Source: Rhodovarius lipocyclicus (GTDB lineage: Bacteria; Pseudomonadota; Alphaproteobacteria; Acetobacterales; Acetobacteraceae). Taken from it: a DNA stretch of 52,167 nt. Under the pieces are notes generated by a model. It searched no databases and was not told the DNA's origin. It saw only the letters and a list, made by a program, of their open reading frames with translations. Made by a program: the position numbers and the translations under genes. This document shows positions 4,959-51,926 of the stretch, in pieces (the first letter of the stretch is position 1; each line of letters starts with the position of its first letter). The stretch is taken from contig NZ_JAAABL010000025.1 in assembly GCF_009900765.1 (NCBI RefSeq), forward strand, positions 1 through 52,167. Reading direction: 5' to 3'.

Positions 4959-5966
4959 TTATGCGGGGGTGGCCAGCCACTCCCGCACGGCATCGCGGAT
5001 GAAGGCCGTGTCGGCCGCGTTGCCCATGGGGTTGCCCGCGCGGTGGCCCCAGATGCTGAGGATGGGCAGCAGCTTGCCATGGCGCAGATGCGGCAGTTCG
5101 GCCGCGTTGTCCGCCACGCGGAAATACAGGTCGGTGTCGCCCGGCATCAGCAGCACCCGCGCCTGGATGGCCCCCAGCGCCCGGGGCAGATCCCCCCCGT
5201 AAGCCTGGCCGATATCCCCCGCATCCCAGCATTTCAGCTGCGCATACAGGTTGGCGGCGCGGCGGATGGCCCAGCGCGCCTCCCACTGGTTGCGCAGGAA
5301 GCTTTCCAGGTCGGGCTCCGAGGCCAGGTGCAGCCCGGCGCGGTAGAAATCCTGGCTCAGCGCCCAGCCGGCATAGCTGCGGGCAAAGGCGCGGACGGCC
5401 GCCACCGGCTCCGCCGAGAAGCGCCCCTGGCCCTGGTATTCGGGCGCCGCTTCCAGAATGGCCATCAGGCTGCGCAGGAACACCTGGTTGTGCGGCGAGG
5501 TGCGGGCGGTGCCGCAGATGGCCACGATGCGCTCCACCGCCTCCGGGAATTCCGCCGCCCAGTGATAAGCCTGCTGCGCGCCCATGGACCAGCCATAGAC
5601 GCAGGCCACGCGCTCCACCCCGAACACCTCCCGCAGCAGGCGCCGCTGCGCGCGCACATTGTCGAAGGCGGTGACGAGCGCCGGGTAGTCATCGCTGTTC
5701 GACGGGCTGCTGGACAGGCCGTTGCCGAACATGTCCGGCTGGATGATGAACCAGCGCGTGGGGTCCAGGATTCCCTCCGGCCCCAGCAGCCATTGCAGTT
5801 CCGGGCTCTGCGCCGAATAGCTGGTGGGATAGACGATCACATTGTCCCGCGCGGGGGAAAGCGTGCCATGCGCCCGCCAGTTCAGCCGCGCGTCCCGCAG
5901 GGTGCCGCCCGCCGACAGCGGCAGGTCCCCCAGCGCGAAAATGCCTTCCTTGATCGACCAATCCAT
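4959..5966 (-). CDS. Alpha/beta hydrolase, homoserine acetyltransferase (MetX)-like fold
   Basis: A 335-residue alpha/beta-hydrolase. The N-terminal part (LRDARLNWRAHGTLSPARDNVIVYPTSYS) looks like the MetX/homoserine acetyltransferase branch. The nucleophile elbow is GWSMG with Ser127, and the protein contains the oxyanion-type stretch PTRWFIIQPDMFGNGLSSSPSN. The C-terminal LLMPGDTDLYFRVADNAAEL supplies the acid, and ILSIWGHRAGNP the His. The family includes acyltransferases and esterases and the sequence does not separate them; a plain hydrolase is likelier because no methionine pathway gene is nearby. ATG 5966 was preferred to an upstream in-frame ATG because the conserved part starts at once and GGGAAG lies just upstream. 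It diverges from the MATE gene, and the gap holds one copy of the shared inverted-repeat operator. Confidence 0.85.
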   Translation of the reverse strand: MDWSIKEGIFALGDLPLSAGGTLRDARLNWRAHGTLSPARDNVIVYPTSYSAQSPELQWLLGPEGILDPTRWFIIQPDMFGNGLSSSPSNSDDYPALVTAFDNVRAQRRLLREVFGVERVACVYGWSMGAQQAYHWAAEFPEAVERIVAICGTARTSPHNQVFLRSLMAILEAAPEYQGQGRFSAEPVAAVRAFARSYAGWALSQDFYRAGLHLASEPDLESFLRNQWEARWAIRRAANLYAQLKCWDAGDIGQAYGGDLPRALGAIQARVLLMPGDTDLYFRVADNAAELPHLRHGKLLPILSIWGHRAGNPMGNAADTAFIRDAVREWLATPA

Positions 5967-6070
5967 TGGGGCTTCCCGTGCATGCGCGGCACGCCGGCGC
6001 CACGTCCTGGCCGCAGTCTGCACGGCGGGTGGGCGGGGCGCCAGCGGCCCCCCTCACTCCCCCGAGGGTC

Positions 6071-6105
6071 GGGAATGTCCTGAATCGCGGCATCTCTGAC
6101 ATTCC
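6071..6105 (+). promoter_or_regulatory. Operator-like inverted repeat, copy 1 (GGAATGTC-N18-GACATTCC)
   Basis: In the gap between the divergent hydrolase and MATE genes, GGAATGTC (6072-6079) and GACATTCC (6098-6105) form a perfect 8-bp inverted repeat with an 18-base spacer. The left half continues as CTGAA. The same arrangement, read on the minus strand, occurs at 9443-9476 and matches at 25 of 31 aligned positions including the spacer. It ends 73 bases before the MATE start codon, close to the 80 bases seen for the other copy and the SDR gene. A transcription-factor site is the simplest reading; the neighbouring GlxA-type regulator is the first candidate. This is inference from sequence alone. 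Confidence 0.6.
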
Positions 6106-6178
6106 TGCCGTGGCGGCAGCCCGGCACTCTGCCCCCCTGGGCGCGCCGGTGATGCGCCCTTGTGAGGACCGTCAGAGC

Positions 6179-7558
6179 ATGAGCGCGACAACCGCCGCTT
6201 CCCCCCTTTCCCCGCCGCGCACGGACCAGCGCACCCAGCGCCTGTTGCAGGCGCCCGTCGTGCCGCTGCTGCTGCGCATGGCCTGGCCCAATGTGCTGAT
6301 CATGCTGGCCCAGGCCGCCACCGGGCTGATCGAGACCTGGTGGGTGTCCCGGCTGGGCACCGCGGCGCTGGCGGGCATGGCGCTGACCTTCCCCGCCGTC
6401 ATGCTGATGACCATGATCTCCGGCGGGGCGATGGGTGGGGGCATATCCTCGGCCGTGGCGCGCGCGCTGGGGGCCGGCAGGCGTGACCAGGCGGACGCGC
6501 TGGTGCTGCACGCGGTCTTCATCAACCTGGTGCTGGGCCTGGCGATCTCCGCCCTGTTCCTGCTGTTCGGGGAGAACCTCTACCGCGCCATGGGCGGCGA
6601 GGGGGAGGAGCTGCGCGCCGCCATGATCTATTCCGACACGGTGTTCAGCGGCGTCGTCTTCATCTGGCTGATGAACGGGCTGGCCAGCGTCATCCGCGGC
6701 ACGGGCAACATGGCCTATCCGGCCACGGTGATCTGCGTGGGGGTGGTGTTCCTGGTGCCGCTCTCGCCGCTGCTGATCTTCGGCTGGGGGCCCATCCCGG
6801 CCATGGGCATCGCGGGCGGGGGCGTCGCGCTGCTGCTGTTCTTCGTGGGCGGCACCATCGCCATGGCCTGGTACATCCTGTCGGGGCGCAACGTCGCGCG
6901 GTTCCGCTGGGTGCGGCTGCGCTGGGCGCCGCTGAGCGCCATCCTGCGCATCGGCGCGGTCTCGGCCATCACCTCGGTGCTGACCAACATCACCATTGGC
7001 GGCGCCACCGGGCTGGTGGCCGCCGCCGGCGGGGTGGGCGCCATCGCGGGGTTCGGCACCGGCGCGCGGCTGGAATACCTGCTGGTGCCGCTCAGCTTCG
7101 GCATCGGCGCGCCGCTGGTGGCGCTGGTGGGCACCAATATCGGGGCGGGCCAGCGGGACCGCGCGCTGCGCATCGCACTCACCGGCGGCGCCATGGCCTT
7201 CCTGATCACGGAGGGGCTGGGCCTCTGCGCCGCCATCTGGCCGGAGTTGTGGCTGCGCCTGTTCAGCGATGAGCCGGAGATGCTGGCGGCGGGCAGCCAG
7301 TACCTGCGCGTCGTGGGGCCGGCTTATGGCTTCTTCGGGCTGGGGCTGACGCTGTATTTCGCCTCCCAGGGGGCGGGGCGGCTGTTCTGGCCGCTGACGG
7401 CGGGCTTTCTCCGGTTGGCCATCGCGCTGGGCGGGGGCTGGGCCGCGATCCGGCTGACCGGCTCGCTGACCGCGCTGTACGCCACGCTGGCGGCGGCGCT
7501 CGTGGTCTATGGGCTGGCGATCGCGGTGGCGGTGCGCTCGGGCGCCTGGTTCAGGTGA
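6179..7558 (+). CDS. MATE-family multidrug/toxin efflux transporter
   Basis: A 459-residue integral membrane protein with about twelve hydrophobic segments in two pseudo-repeats (MatE domains roughly at residues 25-185 and 245-410). It exports cationic drugs or metabolites in exchange for Na+ or H+. Typical features are LLLRMAWPNVLIMLAQAATG, ETWWVSRLGTAALAGMAL and MGGGISSAVARALGAGRRDQA, with the matching second-half stretch GIGAPLVALVGTNIGAGQRD. The ATG at 6179 has GAGGA about ten bases upstream; an in-frame ATG at 6152 is possible. The 3' end overlaps the convergent regulator gene by eight bases. Copy 1 of the shared operator is upstream, so co-regulation with the SDR gene at 9362 is plausible. 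Confidence 0.92.
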   Translation: MSATTAASPLSPPRTDQRTQRLLQAPVVPLLLRMAWPNVLIMLAQAATGLIETWWVSRLGTAALAGMALTFPAVMLMTMISGGAMGGGISSAVARALGAGRRDQADALVLHAVFINLVLGLAISALFLLFGENLYRAMGGEGEELRAAMIYSDTVFSGVVFIWLMNGLASVIRGTGNMAYPATVICVGVVFLVPLSPLLIFGWGPIPAMGIAGGGVALLLFFVGGTIAMAWYILSGRNVARFRWVRLRWAPLSAILRIGAVSAITSVLTNITIGGATGLVAAAGGVGAIAGFGTGARLEYLLVPLSFGIGAPLVALVGTNIGAGQRDRALRIALTGGAMAFLITEGLGLCAAIWPELWLRLFSDEPEMLAAGSQYLRVVGPAYGFFGLGLTLYFASQGAGRLFWPLTAGFLRLAIALGGGWAAIRLTGSLTALYATLAAALVVYGLAIAVAVRSGAWFR

Positions 7559-8501
7559 GGGCGGGGCGCTGGGTCTCCGCCACGCGGCGGAGGACCTGGG
7601 GCGGCTGGCCGAAGGCGCGGACGAAGGCGCGGCGCATGCGCTCCCGGTCGGCGAAGCCGGTCTCGCGCGCCACCTCGTCCAGGCTGCGCCGGCCTTCCTC
7701 CATCATCATCCGCGCGGCCTCCAGCCGCAGATGCTCCACCGCCTTGGCGGGGGATTGGCCGGTCTCCTCGCGGAACAGGCGGCTGAACTGGCGGGGGCTG
7801 AGGCTCGCCGTCTCCGCCAGTTCCTCCACCGAGAGCGCGTCGCGCAGGTTCTCCTTCGCGTGGATGAGGGCGCGGCGGATACGGTCGGAGCGCGGCTCCA
7901 GCTCCAGCAGGGCGGAGAACTGGGACTGCCCGCCGGGCCGGCGCAGATACACCACCAGGCTGCGGGCGGTGGCCTTGGCGACCTTGTGGCCGAAATCATG
8001 CTCGACCAGGGCCAGGGCCAGGTCGATGCCCGCACTCATCCCCGCCGAGGTCCAGATCGGGCCATCGACGGTGAAGATCCGGTCCTCCTCCACCTTCACC
8101 AGGGGGTAGCGGGCCTGCAGGGCGCGGGCATGGGCCCAATGGGTGGTGGCGCGGCGGCCGTCCAGCAGCCCGGCCTCCGCCAGCACATAGGCGCCGGTGC
8201 AGATGCCCGCGACCCGGCGGGAGGATCGGGCGGCGGCGCGCAGATAGCGCAGCAGCCCGGGCGTGCCGGTCCGCGCATCGGCCGAACCGCCGGTGATGGT
8301 GGTGTCGGCGAAATCGTCGTCCCAGGGCTGGGTGTCGATGGAAAAGCCCAGCGTGTTGCGCACCGGCCCGCCGCGCTCGGACATCACCCGCACCTCATAG
8401 GCGCGGCGGCCCAGCACGGTGTTCGCCATCTCGAAGGCGGACATGGCCGCCAGGCCCATCACCTGGAAGCCGTCATAGACGAGGTAGCCGATGCTGGGCA
8501 T
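7551..8501 (-). CDS. GlxA-family transcriptional regulator (DJ-1/PfpI domain plus AraC HTH)
   Basis: A 316-residue regulator. Residues about 3-170 form a DJ-1/PfpI amidotransferase-like domain (MPSIGYLVYDGFQVMGLAAM) with the nucleophile elbow GICTGAYVLAEAGLL at Cys101 and the trailing RATTHW. The C-terminal hundred residues are an AraC-type double HTH (LSVEELAETASLSPRQFSRL, FADRERMRRAFVRAFGQ). GlxA-type proteins usually activate catabolic or stress genes in response to small metabolites. It lies downstream of the SDR gene on the same strand and probably shares its transcript; a near-perfect 36-bp palindrome sits in the 60-base gap between them. It is a plausible cognate factor for the operator copies at 6071 and 9443. 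Confidence 0.92.
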   Translation of the reverse strand: MPSIGYLVYDGFQVMGLAAMSAFEMANTVLGRRAYEVRVMSERGGPVRNTLGFSIDTQPWDDDFADTTITGGSADARTGTPGLLRYLRAAARSSRRVAGICTGAYVLAEAGLLDGRRATTHWAHARALQARYPLVKVEEDRIFTVDGPIWTSAGMSAGIDLALALVEHDFGHKVAKATARSLVVYLRRPGGQSQFSALLELEPRSDRIRRALIHAKENLRDALSVEELAETASLSPRQFSRLFREETGQSPAKAVEHLRLEAARMMMEEGRRSLDEVARETGFADRERMRRAFVRAFGQPPQVLRRVAETQRPALT

Positions 8502-8510
8502 GAGGCCTCC

Positions 8511-8546
8511 ATGGCGTAAATCGCCGTATACGTCGATTTACGCCAT
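8511..8546. promoter_or_regulatory. Near-perfect 36-bp palindrome upstream of the GlxA-type regulator
   Basis: ATGGCGTAAATCG at 8511-8523 is exactly repeated in inverse as CGATTTACGCCAT at 8534-8546, and the ten-base centre itself contains the palindrome CGTATACG (8525-8532). Only one base pair of the whole 36-bp dyad (8524/8533) fails to match. It begins ten bases upstream of the regulator's start codon. There is no T-run on either side, which argues against a simple terminator; an operator for autoregulation, or an mRNA hairpin masking translation, are the alternatives. Confidence 0.55.
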
Positions 8547-8561
8547 GCGCGGCGCGGCCCG

Positions 8562-9362
8562 TCAAGCCGCCTGGGGCGTGGCGTAGCGCGGCGCGACGCG
8601 GGAGGTGGAGAGGTTCGGCATCATCGCCTGGCGCGCGGCCTCGAAGGCCTCCCACTGGGCGCCGTCCTGCAGGGCGGGCAGGGTGGCGAATTCGCCGCGG
8701 TCGAAGCCCACCAGCGCGGCCGCCACCAGGTCGGTCGCGGACATCACCATCTCCGGCGGGACATTGCCGACATCGGCGCCCGCCGTTTCCCAGAATTCCG
8801 TGGCGGTGGCACCCGGCAGCACCACCTGCACGCCGAGGCCGGTGCCCGCGAATTCCTTCCGCAGGGATTGGCTGAAGGCCAGCACGAAGGCCTTGGTGGC
8901 GCCATAGACGCCGTGGAACACCTCCGGCGCCACCGCCAGCACGGAGGCGATGTTCGCCACCCGCCCGGCCCCGCGCGCCAGGAAGCCCGGCACCACGGCA
9001 CGGGTCAGCCGCGTCAACGCCGTGACGTTCAGCGCCACCATGGCATCCAAACGCGCCGGATCGGTCTGCGCCAGCGTGCCGGTGGCGCCGATGCCCGCAT
9101 TGTTCACCAGCACGGTGATGCCCGCATCGGCGGCCAGCGTGGCCTCCAGCGCCCGCAGCTGCGCGGGGTCGGACAGATCGGCGGCGATGCCGCGCGCGGC
9201 CACGCCGTGGCGGGCGCGAATGCGGGCGGCCGTAGCCTCCAGCCGTTCGGCGTTGCGCGCCACCAGGATCACGTCATGGCCGCGCGCCGCCAGACCCTCC
9301 GCGAAAAGGGCGCCGATCCCTGTCGAGGCGCCGGTGATCACCGCTGTACCCTTGCTGGCCAT
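8562..9362 (-). CDS. Short-chain dehydrogenase/reductase (SDR)
   Basis: A 266-residue classical SDR using NAD(P)H. The cofactor motif TGASTGIG is at residues 10-17, followed by the acidic-site motif NNAG (VLVNNAGIGATG). The catalytic Ser is in NIASVLAVAP and the catalytic pair in YGATK (Tyr and Lys). The arrangement resembles the family often labelled YqjQ/DltE-like, but the substrate is unknown. ATG 9362 is chosen because GGAAG precedes it and the Rossmann motif follows at the usual spacing; the upstream in-frame extension lacks similarity to SDRs. It is transcribed toward the GlxA-type regulator and diverges from the desaturase, with operator copy 2 in the divergent promoter region. Confidence 0.93.
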   Translation of the reverse strand: MASKGTAVITGASTGIGALFAEGLAARGHDVILVARNAERLEATAARIRARHGVAARGIAADLSDPAQLRALEATLAADAGITVLVNNAGIGATGTLAQTDPARLDAMVALNVTALTRLTRAVVPGFLARGAGRVANIASVLAVAPEVFHGVYGATKAFVLAFSQSLRKEFAGTGLGVQVVLPGATATEFWETAGADVGNVPPEMVMSATDLVAAALVGFDRGEFATLPALQDGAQWEAFEAARQAMMPNLSTSRVAPRYATPQAA

Positions 9363-9442
9363 GGGCCTGCTTCCTTGCCTGTGGTGCCGCGAGCGGAATG
9401 CCGCGGCGGTTGGGCGCAGGTTAGGGCAAGGCGGGTTTGTCC

Positions 9443-9476
9443 CAAATGTCATTGATACCACTTTTCAGGACATTCA
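9443..9476 (-). promoter_or_regulatory. Operator-like inverted repeat, copy 2 (AATGTC-N18-GACATT)
   Basis: AATGTC at 9445-9450 and GACATT at 9469-9474 form an inverted repeat with an 18-base spacer, exactly as at 6071-6105. Read on the minus strand the site starts TGAATGTCCTGAA and ends TGACATT. It matches copy 1 at 25 of 31 positions, including the asymmetric CTGAA and ATC parts of the spacer. It lies 80 bases upstream of the SDR start codon in the same orientation that copy 1 has toward the MATE gene, and 148 bases from the desaturase start. Two copies with fixed spacing in neighbouring promoters are unlikely to be chance, but no factor has been shown to bind. Confidence 0.6.
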
Positions 9477-51879: not shown

Positions 51880-51926
51880 GATCATCCTGACCCGATCGGA
51901 TGAGACCATCCGATCGGGTGATGATC
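51880..51926. terminator. Bidirectional hairpin between the ArsC-like and chemotaxis genes
   Basis: ACCCGATCGGATG (51890-51902) pairs perfectly with CATCCGATCGGGT (51907-51919) around an AGAC loop; GATCATC (51880-51886) and GATGATC (51920-51926) extend the stem with a three-base bulge. The genes on both sides converge, as expected of a shared terminator. There is no long T-run. Confidence 0.6.

Follow-up and report, generated by a model that had tools for sequence, protein, structure and literature searches.

Two copies of a candidate operator, O1 and O2, precede a MATE family exporter gene and an SDR family oxidoreductase gene in a 52,167-nt stretch of the Rhodovarius lipocyclicus genome (4,585,642 bases, 98.9% complete), hereafter the window; between them lies glxA, the gene of a GlxA-type AraC regulator (Table 1). 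We conclude that O1 and O2 are very probably the sites of this regulator, through which it would activate the SDR and MATE promoters on binding of a ligand or modification of a cysteine. The regulator, the exporter, and the dehydrogenase are likely to make up a small control circuit with counterparts in related bacteria, as suggested by the conservation of the sites, their linkage to regulator orthologs, the presence of sites at both SDR and MATE genes in two species, and the fixed spacing of the sites to a TAnnnY element. A preliminary description of the window had proposed that the GlxA-type regulator has a common operator upstream of both genes, and this prediction is now strongly supported by comparative genomics.

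Both copies contain the perfect inverted repeat AATGTC-N18-GACATT noted in that description, O1 at 6074-6103 on the forward strand and O2 at 9445-9474 with the motif on the reverse strand. No other perfect copy is present in the window or in the whole 4.59 Mb genome, whereas about 0.02 such sites are expected by chance in a genome of this size (our arithmetic from base composition). The copies are identical at 24 of 30 positions; adding the leading G gives 25 of 31, the count made earlier. All six differing positions lie in the spacer, and the core bases are the same. They are oriented identically toward their genes, 73 nt (from 6105 to the MATE ATG at 6179) and 80 nt (from 9443 to the SDR ATG at 9362) upstream, and a domain search identified the product of the intervening gene as a DJ-1/PfpI plus AraC helix-turn-helix (HTH) protein, again in agreement with the earlier reading. 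It had been missed that the likeness to sites of other genomes runs past the dyad, with GACA at 9438-9441 after O2. Four sites in the genome match the dyad with one mismatch, none of them having the asymmetric bases CCTGAA. Near-matches with two mismatches number 14 in the genome, not above the approximately 29 expected (our arithmetic, even base composition). At up to three mismatches the window holds seven matches, no excess over the shuffle mean of 5.63, and therefore only perfect dyad sites are informative. At the same threshold a reversed control pattern gave 21/19 matches versus 99/107 for the motif, so the near-match count is affected by base composition.

The perfect dyad is present in 29 of 200 genomes of the family, the window's genome included. 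The asymmetric combination of CCTGAA and TGACATT occurs, besides the window's genome, only in R. crocodyli (G188), where the site lies upstream of the SDR gene, and in G130, where it lies between the divergently transcribed GlxA and SDR genes. When 84,980 genomes were scanned for exact occurrences of AATGTCCTGAAN12TGACATT, 20 matches were obtained, of which about seven would be expected by chance (simple arithmetic; more in AT-rich genomes). Six matches are alphaproteobacterial, and five of these, in Rhizobiales AFS032198, Aestuariivirga, R. crocodyli, Acidisoma, and Afipia, adjoin a glxA ortholog that is 58-82% identical to that of the window. Three of the five were unknown when the scan pattern was set, and an SDR gene is also present at every one of these loci except AFS032198. 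No such gene was found near the Roseovarius match and the 14 non-alphaproteobacterial ones (open reading frames [ORFs] of at least 150 aa within about 1.3 kb, with translation starts read by eye).

Two side observations come from the same searches. In AFS032198, the gene divergently transcribed from glxA across the site (locus L037, 3118-3534) encodes a 138-aa protein, of the OsmC/Ohr type as judged by eye, and is followed by an epoxide-hydrolase-like gene; this neighborhood hints at a detoxification theme. A near-symmetric 30-mer without the CCTGAA core, AATGTCCG(G/C)AAT...ATT(G/C)CGGACATT, is common to G082 (L014, 149-178) and G014 (C219:15508-15537), which belong to different genera of the family, and is possibly the operator of a different regulator.

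Protein searches covered 385 genomes of the class and 397 of the family (overlapping sets), a maximum of five candidates being scored in each genome. At least 20 orthologous glxA loci were found at 57% identity or more in our own comparison, and an SDR homolog is located nearby at 19 of 20. A site is present at the glxA or SDR promoter in 18 of the 20 loci, with E-values up to 0.0031 under R1, a sequence-only model derived from 19 sites of other genera and containing nothing from the window or from Rhodovarius; 16 of these 18 sites belonged to its training set.

Whole-genome scans with R1 each scored the best 150 first-look candidates, and their E-values are rough. Scatter of the motif through the genome, or lack of conservation in orthologous promoters, had been named beforehand as observations that would speak against a shared operator; instead, R1 has only two matches with E<=10 in the window's genome, O2 and O1 (Table 1), and the motif is conserved in orthologous promoters. 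In R. crocodyli, two matches with E<=5 were likewise found, at the SDR and MATE promoters (7.8e-5 and 0.023, respectively); the MATE ortholog concerned encodes a product 87-89% identical to that of the window and lies approximately 212 kb from glxA. The regulon suggested as local in the preliminary description is not merely local, since the distant MATE gene of R. crocodyli still has a site. Over 25 genomes, all 20 R1 matches with E<0.01 adjoin a GlxA-type gene or its SDR gene (four outside the training set and 16 inside). Among nine genomes of the genus, a glxA ortholog (E up to 1e-80), a close MATE homolog, and sites with E<0.05 occur only in the window's genome and R. crocodyli. Of the other seven, some of which are 69-97% complete, six have no R1 match and one has a partial match at E 0.34; six of them contain only MATE homologs of 38-40% identity and one has none at E up to 1e-50.

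In the alignment of 19 sites, the GNC triplets in columns 4-6, 25-27, and 34-36 are invariant, as are the positions A10, G17, T20, T22, A23, T29, and T30. All three triplets, A10, G17, T20, T29, and T30 are kept in both O1 and O2, with A23 missing from O1 and T22 from O2. The inverted repeat described earlier, though perfect in O1 and O2, is not the conserved feature. Among 15 sites from protein-search loci that were not picked by the AATGTC pattern, none has the perfect dyad, but all contain the GTC triplet and the three GNC triplets with a spacing of 21 and 9 bp, and 13 contain GACATT. Hence the perfect dyad was rejected as the recognition element, and the conserved element is asymmetric and directional.

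In 20 of 23 cases, a TA downstream of the site starts at an offset of exactly 14 nt, and A occupies offset 15 in all 23. At the remaining offsets up to 44, TA was seen at offset 0 in five sites and singly at 2, 3, 22, and 25. This count left out L101, L104, L112, L063, L127, and L133 (another site length, or none by consensus), as well as two MATE sites, that of R. crocodyli with GATCAT at offset 14 and that of G775 with TCGCCC and no TA. The element at offset 14 has the form TAnnnY. The usual spacing would place a -35 box inside the site, and no recognizable -35 is present. In class II activation, the activator site overlaps the -35 region at a fixed distance from the -10 element. The fixed 14-nt spacing to the -10-like TA suggests such a layout, with an activator touching RNA polymerase at -35. 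A different reading of the site center, in which TATATA serves as the -10 element of glxA and is lost where glxA is not divergent, fits the window and R. crocodyli but was dropped because of L120, where an SDR site away from glxA keeps ATATA and the glxA-side site is without it, and L122, where T22 and A23 are kept though glxA is not divergent.

The SDR-MATE-glxA pairing recurs in different arrangements. In G775, glxA, a MATE gene (50-52% identical), and an SDR gene are found together, and MATE and SDR each have a site upstream; the one at MATE is the only such site seen outside Rhodovarius. In G174 (once) and G767 (twice), MATE genes with 42-43% identity are located at a distance of 1.5-1.6 kb from glxA and have no site of their own, and in G011 an operon contains overlapping SDR and MATE genes. 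The cases of R. crocodyli and G775 suggest that a transporter can be tied to an enzyme by gain of an operator, not by moving into its operon. Upstream of the G011 operon (L151, 4851-5210), a TTGACA promoter-like sequence and maybe a divergent TetR-type gene were noticed by eye where the GlxA site would be expected, and the SDR-MATE pair of this genome may be under another regulator.

We suggest the following mechanism. A GlxA dimer would occupy a site about 35 bp long, asymmetric and directional, with the sequence TGTCCTGAA-N12-YGACATT-N3-GNC; the -10 element follows 14 nt after the downstream end of this site, so that the bound protein would cover the would-be -35 position. The trigger could be a ligand meeting the DJ-1-like domain or a modification of its conserved cysteine, Cys101 of the CTGA motif (CTG(A/S)), which is present in all 30 compared rows, a distant GlxA-type paralog included. 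GlxA in this state would activate the SDR promoter via O2 and the MATE promoter via O1, and the reductase and the exporter would be made together. Binding, the dimer, activation over repression, ligand sensing, and the substrates are what we infer here.

Several observations weigh against this reading. The sites largely represent orthologous promoters, so their conservation is not independent in every count. Two glxA orthologs fit poorly: G143 has a 36-nt variant of the site (R1 E 0.70), and G672 (61% identical) has only a site with 5/20 mismatches after glxA, ahead of an alpha/beta hydrolase gene and without an R1 match. The evidence for the exporter is uneven. In 18 genomes with a glxA ortholog, only two of 17 MATE homologs, those of R. 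crocodyli and G775, have a site in front, and MATE homologs with 62-71% identity in G011, G473, G550, and G006 have none; the absence of a visible site before the G011 operon also argues against a universal rule. The R. crocodyli MATE site is weak when taken alone and ends only 26 nt ahead of the start codon, the G775 MATE site is degenerate (6/20 mismatches, no R1 match at E<=5, no TA at offset 14), and CACTCT at O1 is a poor -10. Finally, the recognition helices (SPRQFSRxF...ETGQSPAKA and GFxDRxRMRRAFLRAFGQPPQ), nearly invariant in the site-bearing orthologs and different in the 33% paralog, are also largely kept in orthologs with sites of variant length (L101, L104, L063), so the helices do not discriminate.

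Instead of activating, GlxA might act at these sites as a repressor that blocks SDR and MATE until released by an inducer. The site covers the -35 region, where a bound protein could block polymerase, and in divergent loci the distance between its start and the glxA start codon is mostly about 10-21 nt (37 nt in L062), which fits self-repression of glxA. We nevertheless consider repression of the two targets rather unlikely: the fixed 14-nt spacing to a -10 element without a recognizable -35 is what a polymerase-touching activator needs, and the characterized relative CdhR activates its catabolic operon (excerpt of PMC5806209).

It is quite improbable that another regulator binds O1 and O2 and that glxA is a mere neighbor, given that five of the six alphaproteobacterial exact matches adjoin glxA orthologs and that the seven members of the genus without a glxA ortholog have at most the partial match mentioned above. 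The palindrome O3 ahead of glxA differs in sequence from O1 and O2, and GlxA might prefer it; yet O3 has nearly the same length and weakly matches model positions 8-21 on both strands (E 2.6 and 3). A further candidate binder is the distant GlxA-type paralog, 33-34% identical, encoded on contig C7. For O1 alone, one could think of a copy of the SDR promoter without function, or of a chance relic of it, as O1 differs from O2 at six of 30 positions and has a poor -10. This seems very improbable, because the differences are confined to the spacer with the core bases kept, the leader after O1 is unrelated to the SDR leader (by eye), and the MATE gene of R. crocodyli has its site at a different location.

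The hydrolase (MetX-like) and desaturase genes, included with reservation in the preliminary description, lack support as members of the circuit. Control of both by O1 and O2 was considered but is not backed by the data: the -10-like elements face SDR and MATE, both R1 matches of R. crocodyli are at SDR and MATE and none at MetX, and no desaturase homolog was found in the compared glxA loci. A near-site about 5 kb from the C7 paralog (C7:121793), with 5/20 mismatches and no TA at offset 14, was taken as a chance match. In L155 of G672, a glxA ortholog without an SDR gene (5466-6281) is followed by the weak site (6332-6366) and, 14 nt on, by TAGCCT before a hydrolase-like ORF, as read by eye; in some genera, then, the targets may include hydrolases.

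Table 1. Candidate regulatory elements and genes of the glxA locus in the window
Feature	Position	Strand	Description	Evidence or remark
O1, putative operator copy upstream of MATE	6074..6110	+	35-nt core 6076-6110 TGTCCTGAATCGCGGCATCTCTGACATTCCTGCCG	R1 E 2.9e-4 in own genome
Candidate -10 element, MATE promoter	6125..6130	+	CACTCT, 14 nt past O1	Weak match, CA instead of TA
MATE family exporter	6179..7558	+	459 aa, proposed target	TIGR00797 154.1 bits (cut-off 147.4); PF01554
glxA, DJ-1/PfpI + AraC-HTH regulator	7551..8501	-	316 aa, candidate binder of O1/O2	PF01965, PF12833, PF00165; orthologs adjoin site in other genera
O3, palindrome	8510..8547		CATGGCGTAAATCG-N10-CGATTTACGCCATG; candidate autoregulatory operator or RNA hairpin	8 nt ahead of glxA start codon
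SDR family oxidoreductase	8562..9362	-	266 aa, main proposed target	PF00106; SDR homolog near 19/20 glxA orthologs
Candidate -10 element, SDR promoter	9418..9423	-	TAACCT, 14 nt past O2	
O2, putative operator copy upstream of SDR	9438..9474	-	35-nt core 9472-9438 TGTCCTGAAAAGTGGTATCAATGACATTTGGGACA	R1 E 1.8e-6 in own genome

Assignment of the exporter to the MATE family follows from a TIGR00797 score above the cut-off (Table 1). The 38-bp O3 palindrome with its perfect 14-bp arms had also been missed earlier, and it could be either an autoregulatory operator or an RNA hairpin. Its counterpart in R. crocodyli (L053, 7335-7368) has diverged yet remained symmetric through compensated changes; the predicted folding energy of the stretch is -37.3 kcal/mol (z -4.4) in the window and -28.2 kcal/mol (z -2.5) in R. 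crocodyli. Perfect 12-bp arms with a loop of 6-16 nt occur at two places in the window: at O3 and close to the window end, at 51890-51919, where the inverted repeat is ACCCGATCGGAT-N6-ATCCGATCGGGT.

GlxA-type regulators are common in genome annotation. Among the records listed by literature searches that combined this regulator type with SDR, operator, or MATE, none showed an operator for the SDR-linked clade. With a defined site, its promoter spacing, and two targets, a so far anonymous regulator becomes part of a circuit that can be tested, and the motif provides a pattern for annotating alphaproteobacterial genomes. More speculatively, this could be a widespread, undescribed alphaproteobacterial circuit in which a reactive small molecule is sensed by the cysteine of the DJ-1-like domain, leading to expression of a matching reductase (SDR) and, depending on the lineage, also of MATE via the highly conserved 35-bp operator. 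The exporter would have joined the circuit repeatedly, each time by acquiring a copy of the operator; we regard this extension as doubtful.

Among known systems, the regulator resembles the GATR subfamily (GbdR and CdhR, with the related SouR and ArgR of Pseudomonas), which combines a GATase1-like (DJ-1) domain with an AraC HTH domain. It has this layout, with PF01965 at residues 29-167 and PF12833 at residues 228-306, and scores below the FtrA and GbdR equivalog cut-offs of NCBIfam (221.8 bits against 425 and 160.5 bits against 480). The contact region of CdhR spans 34 bp, its GGTCGC half-sites being arranged as direct repeats with a 15-bp spacer and a 21-bp period, and CdhR is described as a class I activator, binding upstream (excerpt of PMC5806209). 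The predicted sites are similar in length (35 nt) and in period, all 19 aligned sites having GNC in columns 4-6 and 25-27. Unlike those reported for CdhR in that excerpt, the half-sites are TGTCCT-like and YGACAT-like, and the site abuts the -10 element. The sensor half is similar in sequence to isonitrile hydratase InhA of the DJ-1 fold and retains the cysteine of CTG(A/S); in contrast to InhA it is fused to a DNA-binding domain, and enzymatic activity is not implied.

AdpA of Streptomyces also joins a ThiJ/PfpI/DJ-1-like domain to an AraC-type domain (excerpt of PMC9239190), and its structure 3w6v is the nearest solved DNA-binding domain by sequence. It recognizes the 10-nt consensus TGGCSNGWWY at hundreds of genes, with up to five sites per promoter (excerpt of PMC4021200). 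The left half of O1, TGTCCTGAAT, is off this consensus by one base and that of O2, TGTCCTGAAA, by two; unlike AdpA as excerpted there, GlxA would use a long composite site present in two genomic copies. Sulfane sulfur modifies Cys62 of AdpA (excerpt of PMC9239190), and by analogy chemical sensing by this class of regulators is thinkable.

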